The notes beneath the pieces were generated by a model. It was not told the DNA's origin and did no database searches. It worked only from the letters and a program-made list of their open reading frames with translations. This document shows positions 2,861 to 15,003 of a DNA stretch of 15,003 nucleotides, piece by piece. The position numbers and the translations under genes were made by a program. Origin of the DNA: Pseudomonadota bacterium (GTDB taxonomy: Bacteria > Desulfobacterota > WTBG01 > JAGOGO01); NCBI GenBank assembly GCA_021160085.1, contig JAGHDE010000130.1, positions 1 to 15,003 of the forward strand, given 5' to 3'. Position 1 is the first letter of the stretch. Each line of letters begins with the position of its first letter.

Positions 2861-4807
2861 ATGGCTGATGGCAAATTGGTAAGCATTGATAAGACGGTAG
2901 AAGTTCTTTTGGATAAAATGGAAAAAGACGGGGTGGAGTCCTGTTGGGACCGCCATCTTCAGCAGGAGCCCCGCTGTCAATATGGAGACCTCGGGCTTTG
3001 CTGCCGGCATTGCGGCCAGGGGCCCTGTCAGATTGATCCCTTTGGCGGTGAACAGCAAAAAGGAGTATGCGGAGCCACGGCCGAGACCATTGCCGCCCGC
3101 CATTTTATTCGGATGATTGCTGGTGGCGCCGCTGCTCATTCCGATCATGGTCGGGGAGTTGCCGAGGTATTCCTGGCTGCGGCTAAGGGAGAAGCAAAGG
3201 GTTATGAAATCAAGGACGAACAGAAGCTCTTGACAATGGCCATGGACTTTGGCGTGGAGATTGGAGATAAAAGTATAGAAGAAATAGCAGTAGAAGTGGG
3301 AGAGATCGCTCTCGCCCAGTTCGGACAGCAGGAGGGGGAACTCAAGTATATCAAAAAGGCTCCCCTAAAGCGGCAGGAACTGTGGCATAAGTTGGGGGTT
3401 ACTCCCCGGGGAGTGGATCGAGAGATTGTAGAGATTATGCATCGGACCCACATCGGGGTGGATAACGATTACAAAAACTTGCTTTTACAGGGGACCAGAG
3501 CGGCCATAGGCGACGGCTGGGGGGGGAGCATGATTGCTACCGATCTGCAGGATGCCTTGTTTGGAACTCCCTATCCGGTGCTGGGCAGAGTAAATCTGGG
3601 GGTCTTGAAGGAGGACGAGGTCAATATTATCATCCATGGTCATGAACCTCTTCTCTCAGAATTGATTGTGGTGGTATCCCAGGAGAAGGAGATGCTGGAT
3701 CTGGCCACGTCAAAGGGGGCTCAGGGGATAAATCTTGTGGGCATGTGCTGTACCGGTAATGAGATTCTCATGCGGCACGGTATCCCTGTTGCGGGAGACT
3801 TTTTGCAGCAGGAGATAGCCATTGCTACCGGAGCAGCGGAAGCGGTGGTGGTAGACATTCAGTGTATCATGCCCTCATTGCCTTCAGTTGCCGATTGTTA
3901 TCATACCAAGGTTATCTCTACTTCTCCCAAGGCGAAATTTCCCGGGGCTACTCACATTGAATTTGATGAACACAACGCCCTGAATTCAGCAAAAGAGATT
4001 GTGAAAACAGCTATCAATAATTTTCCTAATCGATCCAGAAATGTGAATATTCCAAAAGAATCAGTCGATCTGATAGCCGGTTTCAGCTACGAGACAATCA
4101 ATTATCTCCTGGGGGGAATGTTCCGGGCTTCATGTCGTCCGTTAAACGATAATATCATTAACGGAAGGATCAGAGGGATTGCCGGAGTGGTCGGATGTAA
4201 TAGTGTTAGGACCAGGCATGGTGAGGGCCATGTGGAAATGGTCAAGGAACTGATCAAAAATGATGTAATTGTTCTTCAAACCGGTTGCAGTGCCATCGAC
4301 TGTGCAAAGGCGGGCTTAATGGTTCCCGAGGCGGCAGGTAAATATGCCGGGTCCGGTCTTGCGGAGGTTTGTGAAACAGTGGGGATACCCCCGGTGCTCC
4401 ATATGGGTTCCTGTGTTGATAATGCTCGAATCTTGATTGCCGCCACCGCGGTGATCAAAGAAGGTGGGCTCGGGGATGATATCAGTGAGATGCCGGTTGC
4501 CGGTGCGGCCCCCGAATGGATGAGCGAAAAAGCGATCTCCATCGGACACTATTTTGTGGCTTCCGGGGTTTACACCGTTTTTGGAGCGAACTTTCCTACC
4601 TTGGGCAGCAAAAAGCTTACCAAACATTTATTTGAAGAATTAGAAGAACAAATAGGTGGAATGTGGGGCTTTGAGCCGGATCCGGTTAAGGCGGCCCAGC
4701 TGATGATTAAACATATTGATAAAAAGAGAAAAGCTTTAGGTATTGATAAAACTCGGGAAAGAGTACTTTATGATATGGCCATGAGAAGAGAACTGGAGGC
4801 AGTATAA
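2861..4807 (+). CDS. acsA: Carbon monoxide dehydrogenase, Ni-Fe-S catalytic subunit (CODH)
   Basis: This gene encodes 648 residues, full length for the bacterial CooS/AcsA family. It interconverts CO2 and CO and would feed CO to acetyl-CoA synthase encoded next door. D-cluster cysteines are C39 and C47, and B-cluster cysteines are C48, C51, C56 and C70. Candidate C-cluster ligands are the HGHEP segment (H259/H261), the CC pair at 296-297, C335, C446 (in GCNSVRTRHGEGH), C476 (in QTGCSAIDC) and C518 (in MGSCVDNAR). The SEKA segment near residue 550 carries the conserved lysine next to the active site. All positions expected for an active Ni,Fe-CODH appear to be present. It lies in the acs cluster, 44 bases after the HoxU-like gene and about 70 bases before acsB. 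It acts in the cytoplasm in complex with AcsB. The symbol cooS is equally valid. Confidence 0.97.
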   Translation: MADGKLVSIDKTVEVLLDKMEKDGVESCWDRHLQQEPRCQYGDLGLCCRHCGQGPCQIDPFGGEQQKGVCGATAETIAARHFIRMIAGGAAAHSDHGRGVAEVFLAAAKGEAKGYEIKDEQKLLTMAMDFGVEIGDKSIEEIAVEVGEIALAQFGQQEGELKYIKKAPLKRQELWHKLGVTPRGVDREIVEIMHRTHIGVDNDYKNLLLQGTRAAIGDGWGGSMIATDLQDALFGTPYPVLGRVNLGVLKEDEVNIIIHGHEPLLSELIVVVSQEKEMLDLATSKGAQGINLVGMCCTGNEILMRHGIPVAGDFLQQEIAIATGAAEAVVVDIQCIMPSLPSVADCYHTKVISTSPKAKFPGATHIEFDEHNALNSAKEIVKTAINNFPNRSRNVNIPKESVDLIAGFSYETINYLLGGMFRASCRPLNDNIINGRIRGIAGVVGCNSVRTRHGEGHVEMVKELIKNDVIVLQTGCSAIDCAKAGLMVPEAAGKYAGSGLAEVCETVGIPPVLHMGSCVDNARILIAATAVIKEGGLGDDISEMPVAGAAPEWMSEKAISIGHYFVASGVYTVFGANFPTLGSKKLTKHLFEELEEQIGGMWGFEPDPVKAAQLMIKHIDKKRKALGIDKTRERVLYDMAMRRELEAV

Positions 4808-4863
4808 CTAAGACATGTTATTAATACTTATATAGAAAAAAGTTTAACTGAGAATTTATAATT

Positions 4864-4870
4864 AAGGAGG
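4864..4870 (+). promoter_or_regulatory. Ribosome-binding site that decides the acsB start
   Basis: AAGGAGG ends eight bases before ATG 4879 but only two bases before the in-frame TTG at 4873. The ATG is therefore the likely start, and the protein is two residues shorter than the longest open frame. Confidence 0.75.
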
Positions 4871-4878
4871 ATTTGAAC

Positions 4879-7083
4879 ATGTCAAAAATAATAGCTTCAG
4901 CCGGTATCCGTGGAGCTCATAAGATTGTCGAGAGAGCGGAAAAAAAATGGAAAGAAGCCATGGATAAGTGGGGTGCCAATGAGCCGGTGGGATTTCCCAA
5001 TACCGCCTATTTTTTGCCGGTAATTTATGGAATACTGGGATACAAAGTAGAGAAGTTAGGCGACATTGAATGGGTAGTTAATAAGTGTAAAGACATTCTT
5101 CCTCCTTTCGTAAAAGAGAATGTGCATCTTCCCTACCTGGGTCCGGCGCTGGATGCGGGCATGGCTACTTTTTTTGCAGAAGAGGTGATCGAGGCGATAA
5201 AATATCTGGAAGATCCCAATTGTTATACCAAACAGGAGGATCCCACCGAGGATAATTTATGGCTGGGGGCGGCCGATGACGTTATTTTGCGAAAAAGAGG
5301 GGTAGAGTTTGTTGATGGAACTGCTCCGGGTTTTGCCGCTATCCTGGGAGCAGCTCCCACCAATGAGATTGCCGTAAAAATAGCAGAAGAGCTGCAATTA
5401 AAGAATCTTTATGTTTTTATGGCCGCCGAACACGAGGGAAAGAGATTTTCCGAGCAGTTACAAGAGGAGGGAGTCCAGATCGGTTGGCCTACCCGGTTGG
5501 TATCTTTTGGTTCGGATATCTCCGCAGCGGTTTTTGCCGCAGGCTTCGCTATCCGGGCGGCTATGTCTTTCGGAGGAGTCGAGCCGGGAGATTTCCGAAA
5601 ACTTCTAATTTATAATAAAGATCGGATTTTTGCATTTGCCTTGACCCTGGGATATGTAACCGATGAGTGGTACGCCAATGGCCTTGGGTGTGTAAATTTT
5701 GGTTTCCCGGTTATTGCCGATACCCCGATACCCGAAATTCTGCCCACCGGGGTTTGTACCTATGAACATGTGGTATCCAATGTTCCTCATGACCAGATTG
5801 TCCAAAAGGCGGTGGAAGTGAGGGGCCTCAAGGTTACTGTCGCAGAAGTGCCGGTGCCGGTTGCTTACGGTCCTGCGTTTGAAGGTGAAAGGGTGAGAGG
5901 GGCGGATATTTATCTGGAGTGTGGTGGGGGGAGAACCCCCATGGTAGAGTGGCTTACTACCAAAGAGATGGACGAGGTGGAAGATGGAAAAGTAGAAGTG
6001 ATTGGTCCTGATATAACTGATGTACAACCAAAATCTAAATTGCCATTGGCAATTTGTCTGGAAGCGGCAGGAAGAAAGTTTGAGAAAGATTTTGAGCCTA
6101 TCCTGGAGCGGCAGATTCATCATTTGGTTAATTATGCCCAAGGGGTGATGCATATCGGGCAAAGAGACATTGCCTGGCTTCGAGTAGGCAAAGGAGCAGT
6201 GGAAAAGGGATTTAAGCTCGAACACCTCGGCAAACTACTTTATGCTAAGCTTCACCAGGATTTTGGCACTGTTTTTGATAAAATTCAGGCCAGGATCTAC
6301 ACTGAGGAAGATAAGGTAAAAGAGATGGAAGAAAAGGCCCGGAAGGCTTATGCCGAAAGGGATGCCCGCATTGAAGGGATGACCGATGAGACCACGGATA
6401 CTTATTATTCCTGCACCCTCTGCCAGTCATTTGCCCCCAGCCATGTCTGTATAGTAAGCCCTGAGCGAACCGGTCTTTGCGGGGCATACAACTGGATGGA
6501 TTGCAAGGCATCCTATGAAATAAACCCCACCGGGCCCAATCAGCCGGTAGAAAAAGGGGAATGTCTTGATCCTAAATTAGGAATGTGGAAAGGGTGCAAT
6601 GCGTTTGTTGAAAAGGCATCCCGTGGTAAAATCGATCATTATTATTTTTACAGCATCGTTAATGATCCTATGACCACCTGTGGTTGCTGTGAGTGTATCG
6701 CGGCGATACTCCCTATGTGTAACGGGGTGATGACAGTGAGTCGAGATTATATGGGAGAGACTCCCTGCGGGATGAAGTTTACCACCTTAGCAGGCACTGT
6801 GGGGGGAGGGTTGAGCACTCCCGGATTTGTTGGCCATAGTAAATATAATATCTGCCAGCGTAAATTCATTTTGGGTGATGGAGGGTTAAAGAGGATGGTC
6901 TGGATGCCCAAAATACTCAAAGAGGAGATCGCTGACAGGCTTAAGGCAAGATCAGAAGAGATCGGAATTCCCAATCTTCTTGACATGATTGCTGATGAGA
7001 CAGTAGGTATTAGCGAAGAAGAGATCCTTCCCTTCCTGGAAGAAAAGGGACATCCAGCCCTTACCATGGATCCATTGATGTAA
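4879..7083 (+). CDS. acsB: Acetyl-CoA synthase, alpha subunit of CODH/ACS
   Basis: Predicted 734 residues, the length of the bacterial enzyme including the N-terminal domain that contacts CODH and forms the CO tunnel. Archaeal CdhC lacks that domain. The enzyme joins CO, a methyl group from the corrinoid protein and CoA into acetyl-CoA. A-cluster residues are all visible: cubane cysteines C512, C515, C524 and C534, and the C601-G602-C603 motif for the distal nickel, in TTCGCCEC. These sit exactly six residues after the positions I recall for the Moorella enzyme (506, 509, 518, 528, 595-597). The N-terminal region contains FPNTAYFLPVIYGILG, and the middle domain carries YLECGGGRTPMVEWL. It lies between acsA and acsC in the same orientation with short gaps. 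The assembly factor AcsF/CooC is not encoded nearby in this window. Confidence 0.97.
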   Translation: MSKIIASAGIRGAHKIVERAEKKWKEAMDKWGANEPVGFPNTAYFLPVIYGILGYKVEKLGDIEWVVNKCKDILPPFVKENVHLPYLGPALDAGMATFFAEEVIEAIKYLEDPNCYTKQEDPTEDNLWLGAADDVILRKRGVEFVDGTAPGFAAILGAAPTNEIAVKIAEELQLKNLYVFMAAEHEGKRFSEQLQEEGVQIGWPTRLVSFGSDISAAVFAAGFAIRAAMSFGGVEPGDFRKLLIYNKDRIFAFALTLGYVTDEWYANGLGCVNFGFPVIADTPIPEILPTGVCTYEHVVSNVPHDQIVQKAVEVRGLKVTVAEVPVPVAYGPAFEGERVRGADIYLECGGGRTPMVEWLTTKEMDEVEDGKVEVIGPDITDVQPKSKLPLAICLEAAGRKFEKDFEPILERQIHHLVNYAQGVMHIGQRDIAWLRVGKGAVEKGFKLEHLGKLLYAKLHQDFGTVFDKIQARIYTEEDKVKEMEEKARKAYAERDARIEGMTDETTDTYYSCTLCQSFAPSHVCIVSPERTGLCGAYNWMDCKASYEINPTGPNQPVEKGECLDPKLGMWKGCNAFVEKASRGKIDHYYFYSIVNDPMTTCGCCECIAAILPMCNGVMTVSRDYMGETPCGMKFTTLAGTVGGGLSTPGFVGHSKYNICQRKFILGDGGLKRMVWMPKILKEEIADRLKARSEEIGIPNLLDMIADETVGISEEEILPFLEEKGHPALTMDPLM

Positions 7084-7114
7084 TAAAGAAAAAATCTTTA
7101 AAAAGGAGTAAAAG

Positions 7115-8458
7115 ATGGGACTTACCGGGATTCAAATATTCAAACTTTTGCCTAAGACCAATTGCAAGGAATGTGGATATGCTACCTGTCTTGCTTTTGC
7201 CATGTCACTTGCATCAGGTAAAGCAGAATTATCAGCCTGCCCTTATGTTTCAGAAGAGGCCAAGGAACAGCTTTCAGAAGCAGCAGCTCCTCCTATTAGG
7301 CCACTTACTATCGGAGTGGGTGACAGTGCGCTTAAGATTGGGGGAGAAACAGTAGCTTTTCGCCATGAAAAGAGGTTCGAGAGTTCTCCCGGCCTGGCCA
7401 TACTGGTAAGTGACACTATGGATGAATCCGAGGTTGATGCCAGAATTAATAAACTAAAAGATCTTCAATATGAAAGGGTCGGCCTTATTCTTAAACCAGA
7501 TCTGGTAGCCTTAAAAAATGAATCGGGTGACGTGAATAAATTTGAAGCCCTGGTAAATAAGGTTAAAACCAATGATGGGTTTGGGATGGTTTTAATGAGT
7601 GATAATCCGCAGGTGCTGGTAAAAGGAGTAGAAGCATGTGTGGACAGAAGACCCTTGATCTATGCAGCAACCAAAGATACCGTGGATATATTGGGTAATT
7701 TGGCCAAAGAGAAGAATTGTCCCTTAGCGGCTAAGGCTTCAAGCCTGGAGGAGCTTGCAGATCTTACCGCAGAACTGACCGAGTTGGGGGTTAAGGATAT
7801 TGTAATAGATTCCGGGTCTCGCTCAATGAGAAAAGCCTTTGAGGACCAGATAGTCATCAGGAGAGCTGCCCTGGAAAAAAAATTTAAACCCCTGGGGTTT
7901 CCAACCATCACTTTTCCCTGCGAGATGACTGATGATCCTATGAAGGAAACTTTAATCGCCTCTACCTTTATCTCTAAGTACGGAGGAATCATTGTTCTTT
8001 CTGATTTTGAAGGGCATAGCCTCTTTCCCCTTCTGGTAGAGAGAATGAATATCTATACTGATCCCCAAAGGCCTATGGCAACCACCGAGGGAATTTATCC
8101 TGTCAATGATCCTCAGGAGGATTCACCGGTATTGGTTACCACTAACTTTTCTCTCACCTATTTTATTGTTTCCGGGGAAATTGAATCCAGCCGGGTTCCC
8201 TGTTGGCTCCTGGTAATGGATACCGAAGGACTTTCAGTGATGACTGCCTGGGCAGCAGGGAAATTCGTAGGAGATGCAATCGGAATTTTTATGAAAAAGA
8301 GCGGCATCCTGGATAAGGTTAAAAAGAAAATGGTCATTATCCCAGGGTATGCTGCTGCAATTAGTGGTGATTTAGAAGAGGAACTGGGAGACTGGGAAGT
8401 GAAAGTTGGTCCAAGAGAATCATCCCAGATTCCTGCTTACCTGAAGACAGCTTTGTAA
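7115..8458 (+). CDS. acsC: Corrinoid iron-sulfur protein, large subunit (CFeSP gamma)
   Basis: This gene encodes 447 residues, nearly the same length as the Moorella subunit, and is alignable along its whole length from memory. The N-terminal [4Fe-4S] domain has C17, C20, C25 and C42 in the pattern CKECGYATC...CPYV. A TIM-barrel domain follows. The C-terminal B12-binding region contains TTNFSLTYFIVSGEIESS and DTEGLSVMTAWAAGKF, and the protein ends with VGPRESSQIPAYL. It carries the methyl group from AcsE to the AcsB A-cluster on a cobamide. The start ATG 7115 is preceded by AAAGGAG at 7102-7108. It normally works as a heterodimer with the small subunit AcsD, which is not found on either side here: acsE follows directly after 32 bases. 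The partner must be encoded elsewhere or be absent. Confidence 0.96.
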   Translation: MGLTGIQIFKLLPKTNCKECGYATCLAFAMSLASGKAELSACPYVSEEAKEQLSEAAAPPIRPLTIGVGDSALKIGGETVAFRHEKRFESSPGLAILVSDTMDESEVDARINKLKDLQYERVGLILKPDLVALKNESGDVNKFEALVNKVKTNDGFGMVLMSDNPQVLVKGVEACVDRRPLIYAATKDTVDILGNLAKEKNCPLAAKASSLEELADLTAELTELGVKDIVIDSGSRSMRKAFEDQIVIRRAALEKKFKPLGFPTITFPCEMTDDPMKETLIASTFISKYGGIIVLSDFEGHSLFPLLVERMNIYTDPQRPMATTEGIYPVNDPQEDSPVLVTTNFSLTYFIVSGEIESSRVPCWLLVMDTEGLSVMTAWAAGKFVGDAIGIFMKKSGILDKVKKKMVIIPGYAAAISGDLEEELGDWEVKVGPRESSQIPAYLKTAL

Positions 8459-8490
8459 CCCAAGACAATAACTTAAGGAGGTTAAATATC

Positions 8491-9384
8491 ATGCTGCGAA
8501 TTGGTGAAAATCTAAATGTTATGGTGAAAACTATTGGCGCAGCCATGAAAGCAAAAGATCCGGGCCCGATCAGGAAATTGGCCGAAGAAGAAGCGGAAAA
8601 AGGGATAGATTGGATTGATATTAATCTTGGCCCGGCAAGAAAAGGTGGACCTGAACTGATGGAATGGGTAGTAAAAACAGTTCAGGAAGTGGCTCCTGAT
8701 ATTCCCCTTGCTCTGGATACATCAAACGTAGAGGCTGTTGAAGCAGGATTAAAAGTGCATAAGGGTAAGGCAATTATAAACTCTATCATGGCCCGTCCGG
8801 AGAGAATGGAAGCGATGATCCCTCTGGTAAAAAAATATGATGCAGCCTTTATAGCGCTTCTCTGGGGCCCTCCGGGAATGCCTAGGGATGAAAATGAAAG
8901 ATCGGAAAACGCCGTGACTCTTATTACCGCAGCATTAGAAGCAGGCATTCCTCCCGAAGATATTTATATCGATCCCATTGTAACCCCGGTCAATACCCAG
9001 CAGGACCAGGTAAAAAGCCTGGTAGAATTTATGAAGATGCTTCCGGATATTGTTGAGACGATGGCTCCGGGCGTAAGATCTACCTGTGGACTGTCCAATG
9101 TTTCCAACGGTTCTCCTAATCAACTCAGGCCGATTCTTAATCAGACTTATCTGACGATCATCGAGAAATACGGGATGTATTCAGCTATTGTCGATGCCTT
9201 TGATGATGAGATCGCCACTTTTTGTCGGGGAGAGAAGTCAGAAATCAAAAAGATAATAAATGACGTTTGCGATGGAAATGATCCGGATCCAAGCTCTCTT
9301 TCCAAGGAAGGGCTTGATTATATGAAGACCACCAAGGTTCTTTTAGGCCATTCCCTTTATTCCGATTCCTGGCTGGAAATTTGA
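8491..9384 (+). CDS. acsE: Methyltetrahydrofolate:corrinoid iron-sulfur protein methyltransferase
   Basis: Predicted 297 residues, a pterin-binding TIM-barrel protein. It moves the methyl group from methyl-H4folate to the cobalt of the corrinoid protein. Matches to known AcsE include the N-terminal LRIGENLN, the strand DINLGPA, ALDTSNVEAVEAGL, YIDPIVTPVN and CGLSNVSNGSPN, where the asparagine after LS is the likely pterin-contacting residue. The C-terminus is GHSLYSDSWLEI. It is about 35 residues longer than the Moorella form. The extra segment lies near residues 245-280 (FCRGEKSEIKK... to ...LDYMKTTK), between the last barrel strands and the conserved tail. ATG 8491 has TTAAGGAGG at 8473-8481. 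It is the last gene of the acs cluster before the intergenic gap at 9385-9669. Confidence 0.93.
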   Translation: MLRIGENLNVMVKTIGAAMKAKDPGPIRKLAEEEAEKGIDWIDINLGPARKGGPELMEWVVKTVQEVAPDIPLALDTSNVEAVEAGLKVHKGKAIINSIMARPERMEAMIPLVKKYDAAFIALLWGPPGMPRDENERSENAVTLITAALEAGIPPEDIYIDPIVTPVNTQQDQVKSLVEFMKMLPDIVETMAPGVRSTCGLSNVSNGSPNQLRPILNQTYLTIIEKYGMYSAIVDAFDDEIATFCRGEKSEIKKIINDVCDGNDPDPSSLSKEGLDYMKTTKVLLGHSLYSDSWLEI

Positions 9385-9669: not shown

Positions 9670-11454
9670 ATGTTTTTCACCATTTCTTTATATATTGCTT
9701 TAGCCATTTTTGGAGTCGGTCTGCTCTATAAAGTGTGGACCTGGTTTCGATACAAAATCGATATAGATACCAGAAATATTTCGACCTCAGCGAGGTTTTT
9801 TGCCGCCATCAAGGGAATTATACGGACTTTGTTCAGCCCGAAAATTTTTACCCTTTTAAAAGTATTTGTCCTTGATATACTTTTGCAGACAAGAATATTA
9901 AGGGAGGACTTTCTCAGGTGGCTCATGCACATGTGCATATATTGTGGTTTCATGCTGCTTCTTCTGATGCATGCTTTGGACGAGGTTATAACCTCTGTTT
10001 TATTCCCAGACTATTTTTCGACCATCAACCCGTTTATGTTTTTGAGGGATCTGTTCGGTGGAATGGTGATCATGGGATTGGCCATTGCGGTTTATCGGCG
10101 TTTTATTTTGAAGGTGCCCCGTCTAAAGACCAACGCAATGGATGGCTACGCAATAATCATCGTGGCCATCATTATTTTTTCCGGAATTATTTTAGAGGGC
10201 ACAAAAATTACATCTTACTCAACCTACCAGCAGATGCAAGGGGACTACCTTGAACTGGACGATGAGCAAGAGCTTAGAGCCTTGGAGTCCTATTGGGTAA
10301 AGGACTTTGGAGTTGTCTCCCCCAATTTGAAAGGGCCATTTGACACTGAGACGCTGGCGCAGGGTAAAGAACTCCATGAAATGAGCTGCGCCATGTGTCA
10401 CTCCCGCCCCCAATGGGCATTTACAGGCTATGGAGTAGCCAGAATCATCAGGCCGATAGCCCTGGGATTAGACCGGGCTAATATGCCTACCACCATCTGG
10501 TATATACATTTCTTGGCCTGCCTGATTGGTTTGGCCTATCTTCCTTTTAGTAAAATGTTCCATATTTTTGCCAGCCCGCTGAGCCTGATGGCCAATGCGG
10601 TCATGGATAAAAAAAAGTCAGATCCGGCCAACATAGCCACCAGACAGATCATGGAGCTGGATGCCTGCACCCATTGCGGTACGTGCACCTTGAACTGCTC
10701 GGTTGGAGTGATTTTTGAGGAAATTCCCAACTTCAATATTCTTCCATCCGAAAAGATAGCCTCAATAAAGTCACTCGCCGCTGGCAAGGAACTGAGTGAG
10801 CAAGAGCTTAAGATTATTCAAGAAGGAGTTTGTCTTTGTACCAATTGCTATCGGTGCACGGTGGTCTGTCCAGTGGGAATCAACCTGCAGGATTTGTGGT
10901 TCAACGTTAAGGAGTCCTTGTTGCAAAAGGGTTATCCTGAGTTTCTCTCTCTTTCGCCCCTTTCTTACTACCGTGGATTAATGAAAGAAGAAGTGGTAAA
11001 AGATAAGTACCAGGAGCCCCTGGATCGGGCTCGAGAGGCTATCGTTGCTGAGTGCGAATTAATGAAAATAATGAAGATGGGGGATAAAGTTTTGCCTCTG
11101 ACTTCTACCGATAGGGATTTTCAAAGTGGGCTAAGCTTATCAGCCCAGGCAAACACTTTCTCGGCTTGCTTTGGCTGTGTTACCTGTACCACCGTTTGTC
11201 CGGTGGTAGCCAACTACGAGAACCCGCAAGAAGTCCTGGGACTCCTGCCGCATCAGATTATGCACTCCTGTGGATTGGGCCTCAGGGACCTGGCCTTTGG
11301 TTCAAATATGCTATGGGACTGTCTTACCTGCTATCAGTGCCAGGAACACTGCCCTCAGGGGGTATGTATTACCGATATACTCTATGAACTTAAAAATTTA
11401 GCAATCAAACAGGTAAAAGAAAAAACCTCACCGCTGATGGAAAAAACATTATGA
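9670..11454 (+). CDS. Membrane cytochrome b with heme-c loop fused to two HdrC-like Fe-S modules
   Basis: Predicted 594 residues. The first ~300 residues form a NarI/DsrM-like cytochrome b with about five membrane helices (roughly 5-23, 85-106, 124-143, 157-175, 277-297). Candidate heme-b ligands are H87 and H101 in helix 2 and H280 and H298 in helix 5; the 18-residue step of the latter pair matches NarI. The loop between helices 4 and 5 contains a c-type heme motif, CAMCH, at 240-244. With five helices and cytoplasmic Fe-S domains, this loop should face outside the membrane. The C-terminal half has two HdrC-like pairs of [4Fe-4S] motifs: C333/336/339/343 with C390/393/396/400, and C500/503/506/510 with C551/554/557/561. 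It ends in an ATGA overlap with hdrB. TTAAGG at 9655-9660 supports ATG 9670. Likely role: electron transfer between the HdrB-type site and quinones or a periplasmic partner. It resembles QmoC/DsrMK/HdrDE-type proteins, but I know no named equivalent. Confidence 0.85.
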   Translation: MFFTISLYIALAIFGVGLLYKVWTWFRYKIDIDTRNISTSARFFAAIKGIIRTLFSPKIFTLLKVFVLDILLQTRILREDFLRWLMHMCIYCGFMLLLLMHALDEVITSVLFPDYFSTINPFMFLRDLFGGMVIMGLAIAVYRRFILKVPRLKTNAMDGYAIIIVAIIIFSGIILEGTKITSYSTYQQMQGDYLELDDEQELRALESYWVKDFGVVSPNLKGPFDTETLAQGKELHEMSCAMCHSRPQWAFTGYGVARIIRPIALGLDRANMPTTIWYIHFLACLIGLAYLPFSKMFHIFASPLSLMANAVMDKKKSDPANIATRQIMELDACTHCGTCTLNCSVGVIFEEIPNFNILPSEKIASIKSLAAGKELSEQELKIIQEGVCLCTNCYRCTVVCPVGINLQDLWFNVKESLLQKGYPEFLSLSPLSYYRGLMKEEVVKDKYQEPLDRAREAIVAECELMKIMKMGDKVLPLTSTDRDFQSGLSLSAQANTFSACFGCVTCTTVCPVVANYENPQEVLGLLPHQIMHSCGLGLRDLAFGSNMLWDCLTCYQCQEHCPQGVCITDILYELKNLAIKQVKEKTSPLMEKTL

Positions 11455-12326
11455 AGTTTGCCCTATTTCTTGGTTGCAATATCCCGGCTCGTCTCGAACA
11501 ATACGAATCCTCAGCCAGGGGGGTTTTAGGTAAACTCGGTGTGGGATTGGTGGATATAAAAGAATTTAATTGTTGTGGATATCCTGTAAGAAATCTCGAT
11601 TTTAAAACTTTTGTTCTCGCTTCAGCCAGAAATCTGGCCCTGGCTGAAAAGAAGAACCTGGATTTGCTGAGTTTGTGCAAATGTTGTTATGGCAGCCTAA
11701 AGAAGGTAGACCATCTTATGAAGGAAGACGCTTCCTTACGGAAAGAAATCAATGCAACTCTGGAAAAAGAAGGTCTTAAATATGAGGGAGGTATTGAGGT
11801 AAAACATTTGCTCTCTGTTTTATACCACGAAGTAGGTCTTGGGCCTCTCAAAGAGAAGATAAAGAATTCCTTTGAAGGTCTTAAAATTGCAACCCACTAT
11901 GGCTGCCATGTTCTGCGCCCAAGTCAAATAGTCCAATTTGACAATCCAGTGGCACCATCCATATTCGATCAACTGGTTGAAGTCACCGGCGCCAAGAGTA
12001 TTTTTTGGCAAACTAAGCTTGAATGCTGCGGCGCTCCCTTGTGGGGGGTAAATGATGATCTATCCATGGATTTGACTGAAAAGAAACTAACAGACGGGAA
12101 GCAATCTGGTGCTGACTACCTTTGCACTGCCTGTTCATACTGCCAGATGCAGTTCGATACGGTTCAAAAGATGATTCTTGCCAAACGGGGTACGAATCAT
12201 CATCTTCCCTCTATTCTCTATCCACAGCTTCTCGGACTCAGCATGGGCCTCAATCGGGAAATCCTGGGGTTAGAGAAGAACCAGTTGCCTATCAGCGGCA
12301 TAGAGGATTTTTTGGTTTTTTCATAA
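11451..12326 (+). CDS. hdrB: HdrB-like subunit (two CCG domains)
   Basis: Predicted 291 residues, the usual HdrB length. Both cysteine-rich CCG motifs are complete. The first is C9, C41-C42, C76 and C79. The second is C152, C192-C193, C225 and C228. In methanogen HdrB these bind two noncubane [4Fe-4S] clusters that reduce heterodisulfides; in bacteria the natural substrate is mostly unknown. The start codon overlaps the stop of the cytochrome b/HdrC fusion (ATGA), so the two are translationally coupled. The preceding protein supplies the HdrC-like ferredoxin domains and membrane anchor that HdrB normally needs. A soluble cytoplasmic subunit is expected. Alternatives within the family are DsrK- or GlpC-like Fe-S oxidoreductases, but the two full CCG motifs in a short stand-alone protein fit HdrB best. 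Confidence 0.92.
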   Translation: MKFALFLGCNIPARLEQYESSARGVLGKLGVGLVDIKEFNCCGYPVRNLDFKTFVLASARNLALAEKKNLDLLSLCKCCYGSLKKVDHLMKEDASLRKEINATLEKEGLKYEGGIEVKHLLSVLYHEVGLGPLKEKIKNSFEGLKIATHYGCHVLRPSQIVQFDNPVAPSIFDQLVEVTGAKSIFWQTKLECCGAPLWGVNDDLSMDLTEKKLTDGKQSGADYLCTACSYCQMQFDTVQKMILAKRGTNHHLPSILYPQLLGLSMGLNREILGLEKNQLPISGIEDFLVFS

Positions 12327-12436
12327 AAAAGTTGGTATGCGGAAAAGATTTAAAGATTCGGGATGGTTTTTATGTATTCTTTGTTTCGATTGAAGGAGGA
12401 GATTTAGTAAGTGAGACTGGAAAGGGGTAAACAAGA
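12327..12436 (+). other. Gap with an unused strong Shine-Dalgarno and a 9-codon frame
   Basis: Between hdrB and the GltD-like gene, AAGGAGG at 12393-12399 stands 11 bases before a GTG at 12411. That GTG opens a nine-codon frame ending at TGA 12438-12440, which overlaps the downstream GTG start (GTGA). The arrangement would permit coupled reinitiation, or it may mark a frameshift near the true N-terminus. No known small protein is recognised. Confidence 0.3.
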
Positions 12437-14263
12437 GTGATTTCACAAGGAGCTCAGGCCCAGGTTGAAGAAGTGATTGATGAACTCAGCGGTAAGGTGT
12501 GCCTACCTCCGTGTCAAATAGCTTGTCCTCTTGGAGTGGATATCCAACGGACTAATACCATGATTGCTCACCTTCCTCTGGATACTCAGGAGGCTTCCAG
12601 CCTGATAATTAAGATAGGCGATGAGCTTTATGAGAAGAATCCTATGTTTCCGATATGTGGTTATATTTGTGGGCTGTGTGAGAAAGAGTGTAATTATAAG
12701 GATCAGACTGGAGCAGTGAGAAGAAAATTGTTGGTGCGCTTTATTGCTGACTATTATCTTCCTCACCTTGAAACCAGACCCCGGCTTGCTTTTCCCTCCA
12801 AAGAAAAAATTGCTGTAATTGGGGGAGGTCCAGGGGGCTTGATGTGCGCTTACATGCTGGGTAAAAATGGCCACCGAGTAACCATTTTTGAAAGAGGCTT
12901 TGAGATGGGCGGTGTCTTGAGACTCGTCCCTCAATACCGACTTTCTAAGGAGACAATAGATACCACCTTGAATACTCTCGTAAGAATCGCCCATATAGAG
13001 GTGAAATACGGAGTTAAAATCGGCAATGGTGGAAAAACATTGGATGACCTTAAAAACGAAGGTTACCGGGCAATATTTATTGCCACCGGTACCCCTTTTC
13101 CCAGACCCCTTACTTTTGGAAGGGAGCTGGTGGCAGGGACAAAATTAGAGGGAGTCCTGTTCGGTTTGGATATCCTCACAGATGTGAATCAAGGGAAGGT
13201 GTCTCCACAATTGTTTCAGGATAAGAAGGTGATTGTATTGGGTGGAGGCAACGTAGCATTTGATGTGGCGAGGACAGTTAGAAGGCTCGGTGGAAATGTC
13301 TCTGTTGTCTGCCTTGAATGTGAAGATAAATCATCAAAAGACGGCATACCCGCTGATGTAGAAGAGATAGAAGGTGGAAGGGAAGAAGGGATAAGTATAA
13401 CTTATTCCCGAGGTGTGGAAGAGATAATCGGAGAGGATAGTAAATTTAAGAAAATAAAGTGTCCTCGATGTACATCAGTCTTTGATGAAAACGGAATTTT
13501 TAATCCCAGGTTTGACCAGAGTGATTCTATATATCTTGAGGGTGATGTACTTTTGGTTACAATAGGGCAGGCACAGGAGCGGTCGTTTTTCCAGCAGGAA
13601 GATTTGCTTGATGAGAAAGGCAGTCTCGATATCGACCAGCTTACCCTCATGAGCAATCGCAAACAAGGATTTTTTCTCGGAGGAGATGTAAGGCGGGTGG
13701 GTTTTGCCGCAGAGGCGATGAGGGATGGGATGATAATAGCAGAGTCTATAGAACGTTATCTCAAAGGCGAAGACCTGAGAGTGGAAAGGAAGAAAGAATA
13801 CGAAGGTGCACCTATCCTGGAACTCCGGGATTACAAGCCTCAGACTGAACTTAGCTGGAAACCAGTGGAAGAGAGGATGGATTTTAGCCCCTTCGAGAAA
13901 GGGTTCACCCTGGAAGAAGCAGTGGAAGAGGCCAAAAGATGTCTCTGTTGTGGCCCATGCGTGAGTTGTAAGGCATGTATAGCGCTGGAACTTCAGCCGG
14001 AAATACCGGAAATAGAGATCAAACAGGATATTTGCATAGGTTGCGGTTTATGTGAGTCCCTTTGTTCTTATCATGCTGTCAGACTGAAGCCTTATGAGGA
14101 GGGAGGGGAGAAAGCAGCAAATATTGTTATTTCCTGTAAGGGGTGTGGACTTTGTGTCGCCAGCTGTCCTCAAAGGGCAATAACCATAAGCCATTTTAGT
14201 GATGACCACTTGGTAGGTAAAATTTGGACATTGGCTGAGGAAGGATTGAAAGAAGTTTCTTGA
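12437..14263 (+). CDS. GltD/NfnB-like FAD-NAD(P) oxidoreductase with N- and C-terminal Fe-S domains
   Basis: Predicted 608 residues. The N-terminal Fer4_20-type domain has cysteines C22, C26, C30 and C74, C78, C81, C85. The first Rossmann fold binds FAD (GGGPGG at 129-134). The second has GGGNVAFD at 269-276 for NAD(P)H. An FLGGD segment before RRVGFAAEAMRDG is the usual FAD-contacting GD motif. The C-terminus adds a cysteine-rich linker (C502 to C514) and two ferredoxin motifs (C533/536/539/543 and C567/570/573/577). The core resembles the GltD small subunit of glutamate synthase and NfnB, but no glutamate synthase large subunit is present. It sits where an HdrA-type flavoprotein would be expected, between hdrB and an mvhD-like gene. 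GTG 12437 is the only plausible start, because an in-frame stop lies at 12428; AAGGGG precedes it. Likely role: NAD(P)H-linked electron entry or bifurcation for the Hdr-like complex. Confidence 0.88.
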   Translation: MISQGAQAQVEEVIDELSGKVCLPPCQIACPLGVDIQRTNTMIAHLPLDTQEASSLIIKIGDELYEKNPMFPICGYICGLCEKECNYKDQTGAVRRKLLVRFIADYYLPHLETRPRLAFPSKEKIAVIGGGPGGLMCAYMLGKNGHRVTIFERGFEMGGVLRLVPQYRLSKETIDTTLNTLVRIAHIEVKYGVKIGNGGKTLDDLKNEGYRAIFIATGTPFPRPLTFGRELVAGTKLEGVLFGLDILTDVNQGKVSPQLFQDKKVIVLGGGNVAFDVARTVRRLGGNVSVVCLECEDKSSKDGIPADVEEIEGGREEGISITYSRGVEEIIGEDSKFKKIKCPRCTSVFDENGIFNPRFDQSDSIYLEGDVLLVTIGQAQERSFFQQEDLLDEKGSLDIDQLTLMSNRKQGFFLGGDVRRVGFAAEAMRDGMIIAESIERYLKGEDLRVERKKEYEGAPILELRDYKPQTELSWKPVEERMDFSPFEKGFTLEEAVEEAKRCLCCGPCVSCKACIALELQPEIPEIEIKQDICIGCGLCESLCSYHAVRLKPYEEGGEKAANIVISCKGCGLCVASCPQRAITISHFSDDHLVGKIWTLAEEGLKEVS

Positions 14264-14302
14264 AGGATTTACCAGTATAGCAAGGGGTAAAGCTAAGAGG
14301 AT

Positions 14303-15003
14303 ATGACGGAAGATAAAAAACCGAACAAAAGAATTAAGACTCAAGCATCTGAGCCCACGGTATTAGCTTTTTTATGCAACTGGTGTGCCTATGCCGGGGT
14401 AGATTCAGATTGGATATCGAAATTCCAATATCCCCCTAATATTAAGACAGTTAGGGTAATGTGTTCCGGCCGGGTGGATCCGGTGTTTATCTTGGAAGGG
14501 TTTTTAGCCGGTTTTGACGGAATAATGGTTTTTGGCTGTCCCCCCGGTGATTGCCATTATCTAAATGGAAATATTGAGGCAGAAAAAAAGATTAATGTTA
14601 CGAGAAGGCTTCTCAAAATTGCTGAGTTTGATAACGAAAGATTATATCTTGACCGGGGCTCGGCAGGAGAGCGGCAGCGATTTTCCGAGGTGATAACCCA
14701 GTTTGTGACTAAAGTCAGGGAAAGGGGCCCCTTGGAATTAGACGAGTTCGTAAAACGAAAACTACAGGCAGTAAAAGGGGTCTTGGAGGGAGAGAAGTTC
14801 CGCTGGCTGGTGGGAAAGAGCAAGGTGCTGGTAGAAGAGGGAAATGTTTACGGAGAAAAGGTATCTCAGGAAATAATGGATGAATTGTTGGATGAAATTT
14901 CCCACTCAGAATATCTGAAGAATAGAATTTTTCTCGTCTTAAAGGAAAAGCCTTTAACCACCGAGGAAATTTCCCGGAGTCTGGGTATGGAATTAAATGA
15001 TAC
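14303..15003 (+). CDS. mvhD: MvhD-like [2Fe-2S] electron-transfer subunit with C-terminal extension, partial
   Basis: The frame runs from ATG 14303 to the window edge without a stop, giving 233 residues so far. The N-terminal ~140 residues are an MvhD/FrhD-like [2Fe-2S] domain with the five expected cysteines C25, C28, C54, C79 and C84. Key motifs are FLCNWCAYAG, MCSGRVDP and FGCPPGDCHY. In Hdr complexes this protein passes electrons between a hydrogenase or dehydrogenase and HdrA; here its flavoprotein partner is probably the GltD-like protein encoded just upstream. Beyond the core, a charged extension continues past the usual length of about 140 residues. It ends at the edge in a helix-turn-helix-like segment (206-233: RIFLVLKEKPLTTEEISRSL). 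The ribosome-binding site is unclear: AAGAGG is only two bases away and AAGGGG is fifteen. The next upstream in-frame stop, at 14294, excludes an earlier start. Confidence 0.9.
   Translation, partial: MTEDKKPNKRIKTQASEPTVLAFLCNWCAYAGVDSDWISKFQYPPNIKTVRVMCSGRVDPVFILEGFLAGFDGIMVFGCPPGDCHYLNGNIEAEKKINVTRRLLKIAEFDNERLYLDRGSAGERQRFSEVITQFVTKVRERGPLELDEFVKRKLQAVKGVLEGEKFRWLVGKSKVLVEEGNVYGEKVSQEIMDELLDEISHSEYLKNRIFLVLKEKPLTTEEISRSLGMELND

Follow-up and report, generated by a model that had tools for sequence, protein, structure and literature searches.

A putative membrane-anchored heterodisulfide reductase arm with a GltD-like flavoprotein in the place of HdrA, encoded next to CODH/ACS genes on a Desulfobacterota contig

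Couplings of a NarI-type cytochrome to heterodisulfide reductase (Hdr) proteins are already known from HdrDE, DsrMK and EtfD, and fusions of GltD with HdrA are known from HdrL and type III HdrA. In QmoC the HdrC-type domain lies N-terminal to cytochrome b, and the flavoproteins QmoA and QmoB are adjacent. The locus analysed here comprises four successive plus-strand open reading frames (ORFs) of a 15,003-bp Desulfobacterota contig (JAGHDE010000130.1, here C40 of genome G000), the whole of which is called the window. They encode a cytochrome b/c-HdrC2 membrane subunit (gene 1, 9670-11454), HdrB (gene 2, 11451-12326), a GltD-like flavoprotein (gene 3, 12437-14263) and MvhD (gene 4, 14303-15001); genes 1 and 2 overlap by 4 bp, followed by gaps of 110 bp and 39 bp. 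These coordinates bear out the order of the four consecutive genes at 9670-15003 given in the original prediction, which recognised no named complex of this composition; none was found described in the literature searched. This applies to the heme b/c domain fused to two HdrC modules beside HdrB as well as to GltD in the place of HdrA. For the cytochrome b/c-HdrC2 subunit no description was found in the titles or abstracts searched, supplements being outside that scope, and the figures S10/S11 on gene neighbourhoods in PMC10553843 may hold related clusters.

The mycobacterial EtfD, which is proposed to hand electrons to menaquinone (PMC13083937; PDB 9ojn), has, according to that account, CCG domains as part of its single chain and was modelled with one b heme, whereas in the window HdrB is a separate gene. 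Gene 1 also differs from it by a second HdrC module, a CxxCH motif and four candidate histidine ligands; no gene for an electron transfer flavoprotein (ETF) is present in the window, and no ETF domain was found among the ten window proteins scanned. HdrDE and DsrMK, as described in PMC9478090, and QmoC share with gene 1 the NarI-type cytochrome b joined to clusters of HdrC/HdrB type, but here the domain order is different, HdrC is duplicated, a heme c site is present, HdrB is separate and the partner flavoprotein is another one. Unlike in QmoABC, the cytochrome of gene 1 is N-terminal and its neighbours are HdrB and GltD. The soluble HdrABC-MvhD is matched by an HdrB with two CCG motifs and by the 2x[4Fe-4S] HdrC, which here forms the C-terminal domain of a membrane subunit, while HdrA with its bifurcating FAD domain is missing from the window and an HdrA is found on contig C161 of the same genome.

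The Hdr-type methylene-tetrahydrofolate (methylene-THF) reductase MetVF-HdrABC-MvhD, described for Moorella and Sporomusa (PMC9430772), shares HdrB, HdrC and MvhD with the window, and relatives of the window also share HdrA/HdrL and MetVF with it in one cluster. This reductase has HdrA, reported to contain a GltD domain in Moorella (PMC9430772), whereas in the window GltD stands in the place of HdrA. For the S. ovata enzyme the same account gives no subunit with predicted membrane helices and proposes MvhD as the membrane linker, in contrast to the HdrC fused to a cytochrome b/c anchor observed here. The T. phaeum methylene-THF reductase is described as quinone-linked and yet helix-free (PMC6895022). 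The HdrL of Desulfobacterium autotrophicum, an HdrA-glutamate synthase fusion accompanied by MvhD (PMC2702500), carries its GltD module as the NAD(P)H port beside MvhD, as in the window, and the archaeal type III HdrA with a GltD domain (PMC12054007) likewise gives its Hdr complex an NAD(P)H port in the form of GltD. In both accounts GltD is fused to HdrA, whereas the window GltD is free-standing and the profile scan of the window proteins gave no hdrA in the 15,003 bp. The GltD-MvhDGA [NiFe] hydrogenase clusters have a GltD of the same family followed by MvhD, but that MvhD belongs to another clade and the hydrogenase genes were not seen here. Unlike in the NfnAB transhydrogenase, no NfnA (DHODB-like) gene was found beside the NfnB-like GltD among the window proteins.

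The gene content, the cofactor motifs, the pairing of cytb/c-HdrC2 with HdrB, the modelled fold of gene 1 and the swapping of modules between loci are what the analysis shows. The favoured reading, given a probability of about 0.5, is a membrane-bound HdrBC arm that has a GltD flavoprotein instead of HdrA and would transfer electrons between NAD(P)H (or the partner of MvhD) and menaquinone or cytochrome c. Cytb/c-HdrC2 and HdrB would form the membrane-anchored arm, working like EtfD or HdrDE. Electrons would travel between the flavoprotein in the cytoplasm and menaquinone over the clusters of HdrB, then four [4Fe-4S] clusters and then the b hemes, and a periplasmic heme c may provide a second exit, perhaps to a periplasmic cytochrome c. 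Menaquinone as the membrane partner, NAD(P)H as the soluble partner, the direction of transfer and a physical complex are what we infer from these genes.

Gene 1 encodes a protein of 594 residues with a NarI-type domain, a heme-c site and two HdrC-like dicluster modules. The NarI-like heme b domain covers residues 1-319 (9670-10626) with H87, H101, H280 and H298 as candidate heme ligands, and the single CxxCH c-type heme motif (residues 240-244; 10387-10401) lies in a loop that precedes the last membrane helix and would be periplasmic by topology. The first module, HdrC/SdhB-like 2x[4Fe-4S], spans residues 329-404 (10654-10881) with C333, C336, C339, C343, C390, C393, C396 and C400, and the second, HdrC-like 2x[4Fe-4S], residues 498-565 (11161-11364); all of these lie on the plus strand. 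The NarI domain scored barely over its Pfam cut-off (25.4 vs 22.9 bits), the second ferredoxin module matched HdrC TIGR03290 at 73.9 bits (cut-off 160), the match to the QmoC model was 60.9 bits (cut-off 300) and a PADLOC scan of gene 1 gave no match. In an alignment of 104 near-full-length sequences, selected for length and 44-86% identical to the window protein, the four histidines, C240, C243 and H244 and all 16 Fe-S cysteines, the eight of the first module included, were invariant. Because of this invariance, the predicted heme and cluster motifs are not chance matches.

The hydrophobic helices of gene 1 correspond to a membrane domain of NarI/EtfD type, which fits a membrane and not a soluble Hdr. 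The predicted structure had the mycobacterial EtfD (PDB 9ojn) as its best match, and HdrC and NarI folds were also matched; an earlier prediction from a shallow alignment, with a predicted local distance difference test (pLDDT) score of 42, was discarded. By the modelled fold and the motifs, gene 1 has a predicted heme b/c membrane domain joined to HdrC-type clusters, as in membrane Hdr of the EtfD/HdrDE type. These folds support what the original prediction said of the membrane anchor: an Hdr-like arm that carries hemes and probably connects to a quinone. Gene 1 as QmoC, DsrM or EtfD itself was ruled out by the domain order, the separate HdrB, the duplicated HdrC and the heme c.

The start of gene 2 overlaps the stop of gene 1, and its product is an HdrB-like subunit of normal length with two CCG cluster motifs, the N-terminal one of CxCC type. 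It scored 255 bits against TIGR03288 (cut-off 345) with both CCG domains found, and matched solved HdrB structures in PDB at E 1e-64. The residues C9, C41, C42, C76 and C78 were kept in all 94 aligned HdrB proteins of these clusters. Position 79, a canonical ligand by alignment to solved HdrB, was glycine in 15 of the 94, so that the N-terminal motif was mostly CxCC and in these proportions (15/94) CxCG, with the extra cysteine C78 invariant. The Gly79 proteins include those of the MetVF-bearing loci L056, L081, L088, L113 and L117.

Gene 3 occupies the place taken by HdrA or HdrL in relatives and encodes a GltD-like FAD/NAD(P)H flavoprotein with an N-terminal Fer4_20 domain and C-terminal Fe-S domains. 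It matched PRK12771 at 324 bits (cut-off 516) and aligned to Nfn chains. Among the best 120 of 1981 matches, one of them the window's own, 16 carry a C-terminal FlpD/MvhD domain, and the window GltD and MvhD align to consecutive parts of these 16 chains (68-71% and 26-31% identity). Immediately behind beta strand 2 of the NAD(P) domain, 121 of 122 rows (the 120 and two from loci) have glutamate, which suggests NAD, while the loop GGGNVA fits the GXGXXA pattern ascribed to NADP (PMC12054007). The GltD half of HdrL as an ortholog of gene 3 was ruled out, the HdrL-type protein of locus L105 being only 35% identical in this half, although the HdrB beside it reaches 79%. Of the 120 homologs, 13 contain a receiver domain of response regulators (PF00072) (P0139, P0147, P0150, P0156, P0177, P0190, P0202, P0204, P0209, P0219, P0225, P0226 and P0233), where the flavoprotein is apparently linked to signalling.

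Gene 4 encodes an MvhD/FlpD-like [2Fe-2S] protein with a C-terminal extension (143.5 bits against PF02662, FlpD/MvhD). The window is the entire contig, so the contig end cuts mvhD, which is short of about 30 last residues when compared with its nearest relative P0242 (263 aa). Its five cysteines align with cysteines of the solved MvhD-type chain 7bkb_F. With these matches the family assignments of the original prediction were upheld, mostly below equivalog cut-offs, so that the four proteins are better seen as relatives than as standard members. In a tree of 64 MvhD sequences, in which the 19 stand-alone rows grouping with the window MvhD had been chosen as its top hits, the window MvhD fell outside the [NiFe]-hydrogenase-adjacent clade (support 100/100) and outside the GltD-fused clade (100/100). 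It also fell outside the MetVF-linked group that holds the C161 MvhD, with moderate support (88/91), as did the MvhD of the MetV-bearing loci L056 and L116. The window MvhD as the kind adjoining most MetVF was rejected by this tree; L056 and L116 show that MetV loci also have other kinds. Two MvhD genes carry an in-frame TGA in the FlpD domain (L105:7169-7549; G000:C161:6689-7072 minus, L186), at the position of the first cysteine of the window's GCPPGDC motif in the case of L105. The codon is most likely read as selenocysteine, which is described for mvhD of D. autotrophicum (PMC2702500).

The gene order was compared in the best 80 of 287 loci from a contig scan with gene 1, which came from Deltaproteobacteria, Desulfobacterales, Syntrophaceae and the like, with one from Latescibacterota. 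Four loci with less than 300 bp left past gene 1 were excluded from the HdrB count; HdrB directly followed gene 1 in 74 of the remaining 76, and a partial HdrB in one of the excluded four gave 75 loci with HdrB. Gene 1 and HdrB are thus a conserved pair. In L042 (5834-7567), one of the two loci counted as without HdrB, the gene 1 homolog is broken into three ORFs. Removal of 13 of the 75 loci from the next-gene count left 62 testable loci, and 52 of them had an HdrA/HdrL-type flavoprotein or a piece of HdrA behind HdrB; the flavoprotein of L070 and L071 runs into the contig end and has its best match in the HdrL type. Within 8.5 kb downstream of HdrB, the 75 loci contained AsrAB/HydBG-like genes with MvhD in 11, NuoEF in 9, MetV/MetF in 6, MvhD alone in 13 and none of these modules in 36, often at contig ends, which make these classes lower bounds. 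In this reading, the cytoplasmic modules coupled to the arm would be exchangeable between relatives: HdrA or HdrL-MvhD with MetVF, a NuoEF/HoxU-like NADH module, AsrAB/HydBG-like proteins and others. On C40 the module would be GltD replacing HdrA, with MvhD docking a further enzyme encoded past the contig end. Relatives of gene 1 (P0001, 86%), GltD (P0122, 88%) and MvhD (P0242, 76%) each lie on a Joint Genome Institute (JGI) contig of 8,484 bp, presumably one and the same metagenome contig, which is the only second occurrence of the set found in searches with genes 1, 3 and 4. The membrane part is widespread, and the exact four-gene set is rare and not a conserved unit.

Several results weigh against an arm with GltD in the place of HdrA as the working unit, or against a simple Wood-Ljungdahl role for it. 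A free-standing GltD of the window kind followed HdrB in none of the 62 testable loci, and the synteny of the four genes anticipated by the original prediction was thus not borne out; the contig end falls inside mvhD, so the next gene lies beyond 15003; and the GltD motif rules conflict on NADH versus NADPH. Gene 1 and bacterial-type AcsB were not associated (26 of 39 phylum genomes with gene 1 vs 147 of 258 without; Fisher p = 0.30) in a blunt test over 297 genomes, with gene 1 at E <= 1e-60 and both searches assumed to cover the same genomes, where the 39 include partial gene 1 matches and where at least one near relative, G008, shows no more than a distant match of AcsB type (38%). Among 297 genomes of the phylum searched at E <= 1e-150, ten others carry a near homolog of GltD (46-54%; loci L164-L173), and in every one of them MvhD, MvhG and MvhA come right after it (Pfam checked in two). 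The last two results count against the simple Wood-Ljungdahl role and, because these closest same-phylum relatives precede MvhD-MvhG-MvhA, GltD may belong to a different enzyme merely sitting here. GltD-MvhD could then be the start of a GltD-MvhDGA [NiFe] hydrogenase, either only following the arm pair or joining it as an H2:menaquinone/NAD(P) enzyme. This is considered unlikely in view of the position of the window MvhD outside both the clade of those hydrogenases and the GltD-fused clade, the lack of any NiFe hydrogenase domain in the genome at its completeness of 76.6%, and the occurrence of MvhG/MvhA matches in 1 of 98 fetched gene 1 loci (L114), upstream of gene 1. Gene 1 was also missing from 16 of 16 other genomes of the family or class, 14 of which have AcsB, so that the contig may have been transferred or mis-binned. 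The AcsB of the window is 67-68% identical to that of same-family genomes and up to 79% to that of another family. A chimeric or mis-binned contig, on which the CODH/ACS-Hdr neighbourhood would say little of one organism, is nevertheless very improbable, as the acsE-cytb/c-HdrC2 junction recurs in L094, L096, L113 and L117, the G+C content is 0.43-0.50 over the contig genes and 0.43-0.47 for five further contigs that were examined, and the relatives of genes 1, 3 and 4 appear to stand together again on an independent contig.

The other rival is a membrane-integral methylene-THF reductase, in which MetVF, encoded past the contig end or on C161, would pass electrons through MvhD and GltD or HdrA to the arm and menaquinone, in acetate oxidation or CO2 fixation; this is a tentative possibility. 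It is consistent with acsE upstream of gene 1 and with MetV/MetF or carbon monoxide dehydrogenase/acetyl-CoA synthase (CODH/ACS) genes on either side of gene 1 in 12 of 80 loci (L054, L056, L066, L081, L085, L088, L094, L096, L105, L113, L116 and L117), the ACS/CODH genes being upstream in 6 of 80. Pfam confirmed MTHFR/MetV domains in nine proteins of these 12 loci, in one of L014, in the L105 pair and in L054, and L116 was assigned by a tblastn match of 42%. L105 (80% in gene 1), the closest of the loci that have neighbours, reads cytb/c-HdrC2, HdrB, an HdrL-type GltD-HdrA protein of 1474 aa, MvhD with the in-frame TGA, MetV and MetF, and L136 (77%) reads cytb/c-HdrC2, HdrB, HdrA, MvhD and MetV up to the contig end. 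In L014, L054, L056, L066 and L081 the gene 1 homolog is preceded by MTHFR-family genes at a distance of 18-270 bp, and in L088, L113 and L117 it occurs together with AcsB and MetF. In the own genome, contig C161 carries HdrA (last 613 aa), MvhD, MetV and MetF, and gene 1 has a single match. On the other side, MetV/F is downstream in only the 6 of 75 loci given above, AcsB is not associated genome-wide, and the MvhD beside MetVF in the own genome is that of C161, one of only two MvhD matches there, the other being on C40, which lies outside most MvhDs of MetVF loci (88/91, not strong). No exact end overlap (12-300 bp) of C40 was found with five fetched contigs of the genome, C161 included. The methylene-H4folate/Wood-Ljungdahl link suggested earlier finds support in relatives; in the own genome, metVF follows HdrA and a different MvhD on C161. 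The partner of MvhD is most likely a methylene-THF reductase or a [NiFe] hydrogenase, and the neighbouring CODH/ACS genes tip the balance slightly towards a C1/NAD(P)H function.

How the methylene-THF step of acetogens ties to the membrane is an open question. Methyl-THF:quinone-analogue activity is reported for the membranes of S. ovata and T. phaeum, where the activity is partly membrane-associated and the subunits are described as lacking helices (PMC9430772, PMC6895022). An HdrBC arm that brings sites for heme b and heme c of its own, found near MetVF and CODH/ACS genes in several lineages, is a concrete and purifiable candidate, and it appears as a common socket for differing cytoplasmic modules. 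In relatives, the arm together with HdrA/HdrL-MvhD-MetVF would make up an Hdr-type methylene-THF reductase that is integral to the membrane. A further reading, less likely than not, is that the arm is the long-sought membrane anchor of these reductases, by which in Desulfobacterota-type bacteria methyl-THF/methylene-THF, with NAD(P)H through GltD or HdrL, would be a direct partner of menaquinone and, via heme c, of periplasmic cytochromes, making the Wood-Ljungdahl pathway itself a respiratory chain. The membrane part, widespread as it is, suggests a route by which an ancient carbon-fixation pathway could drive respiration directly.

The source is a metagenome-assembled genome with a completeness of 76.6% (273 contigs, 1.34 Mb), in which the search for dsrA was negative. 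By domain and profile matches, the plus strand of C40 carries a NuoEF-like plus HoxU/NuoG-N-like NADH module (178-2816) upstream of cooS, then the Wood-Ljungdahl genes cooS, acsB, acsC and acsE (2861-9384) and, 285 bp after acsE, genes 1-4. Promoter-like sites (9 vs a mean of 9.6) and terminator-like sites (7 vs a mean of 5.7, standard deviation 2.3) were on par with shuffled sequences. A NuoEF plus HoxU-like pair also sits between HdrB and a further HdrA in L074, L086, L092, L095, L106 and L115. On C161 (L186), downstream of metF, short remnant-like pieces resemble NuoL (by eye) and AcsE (54% over 175 aa).

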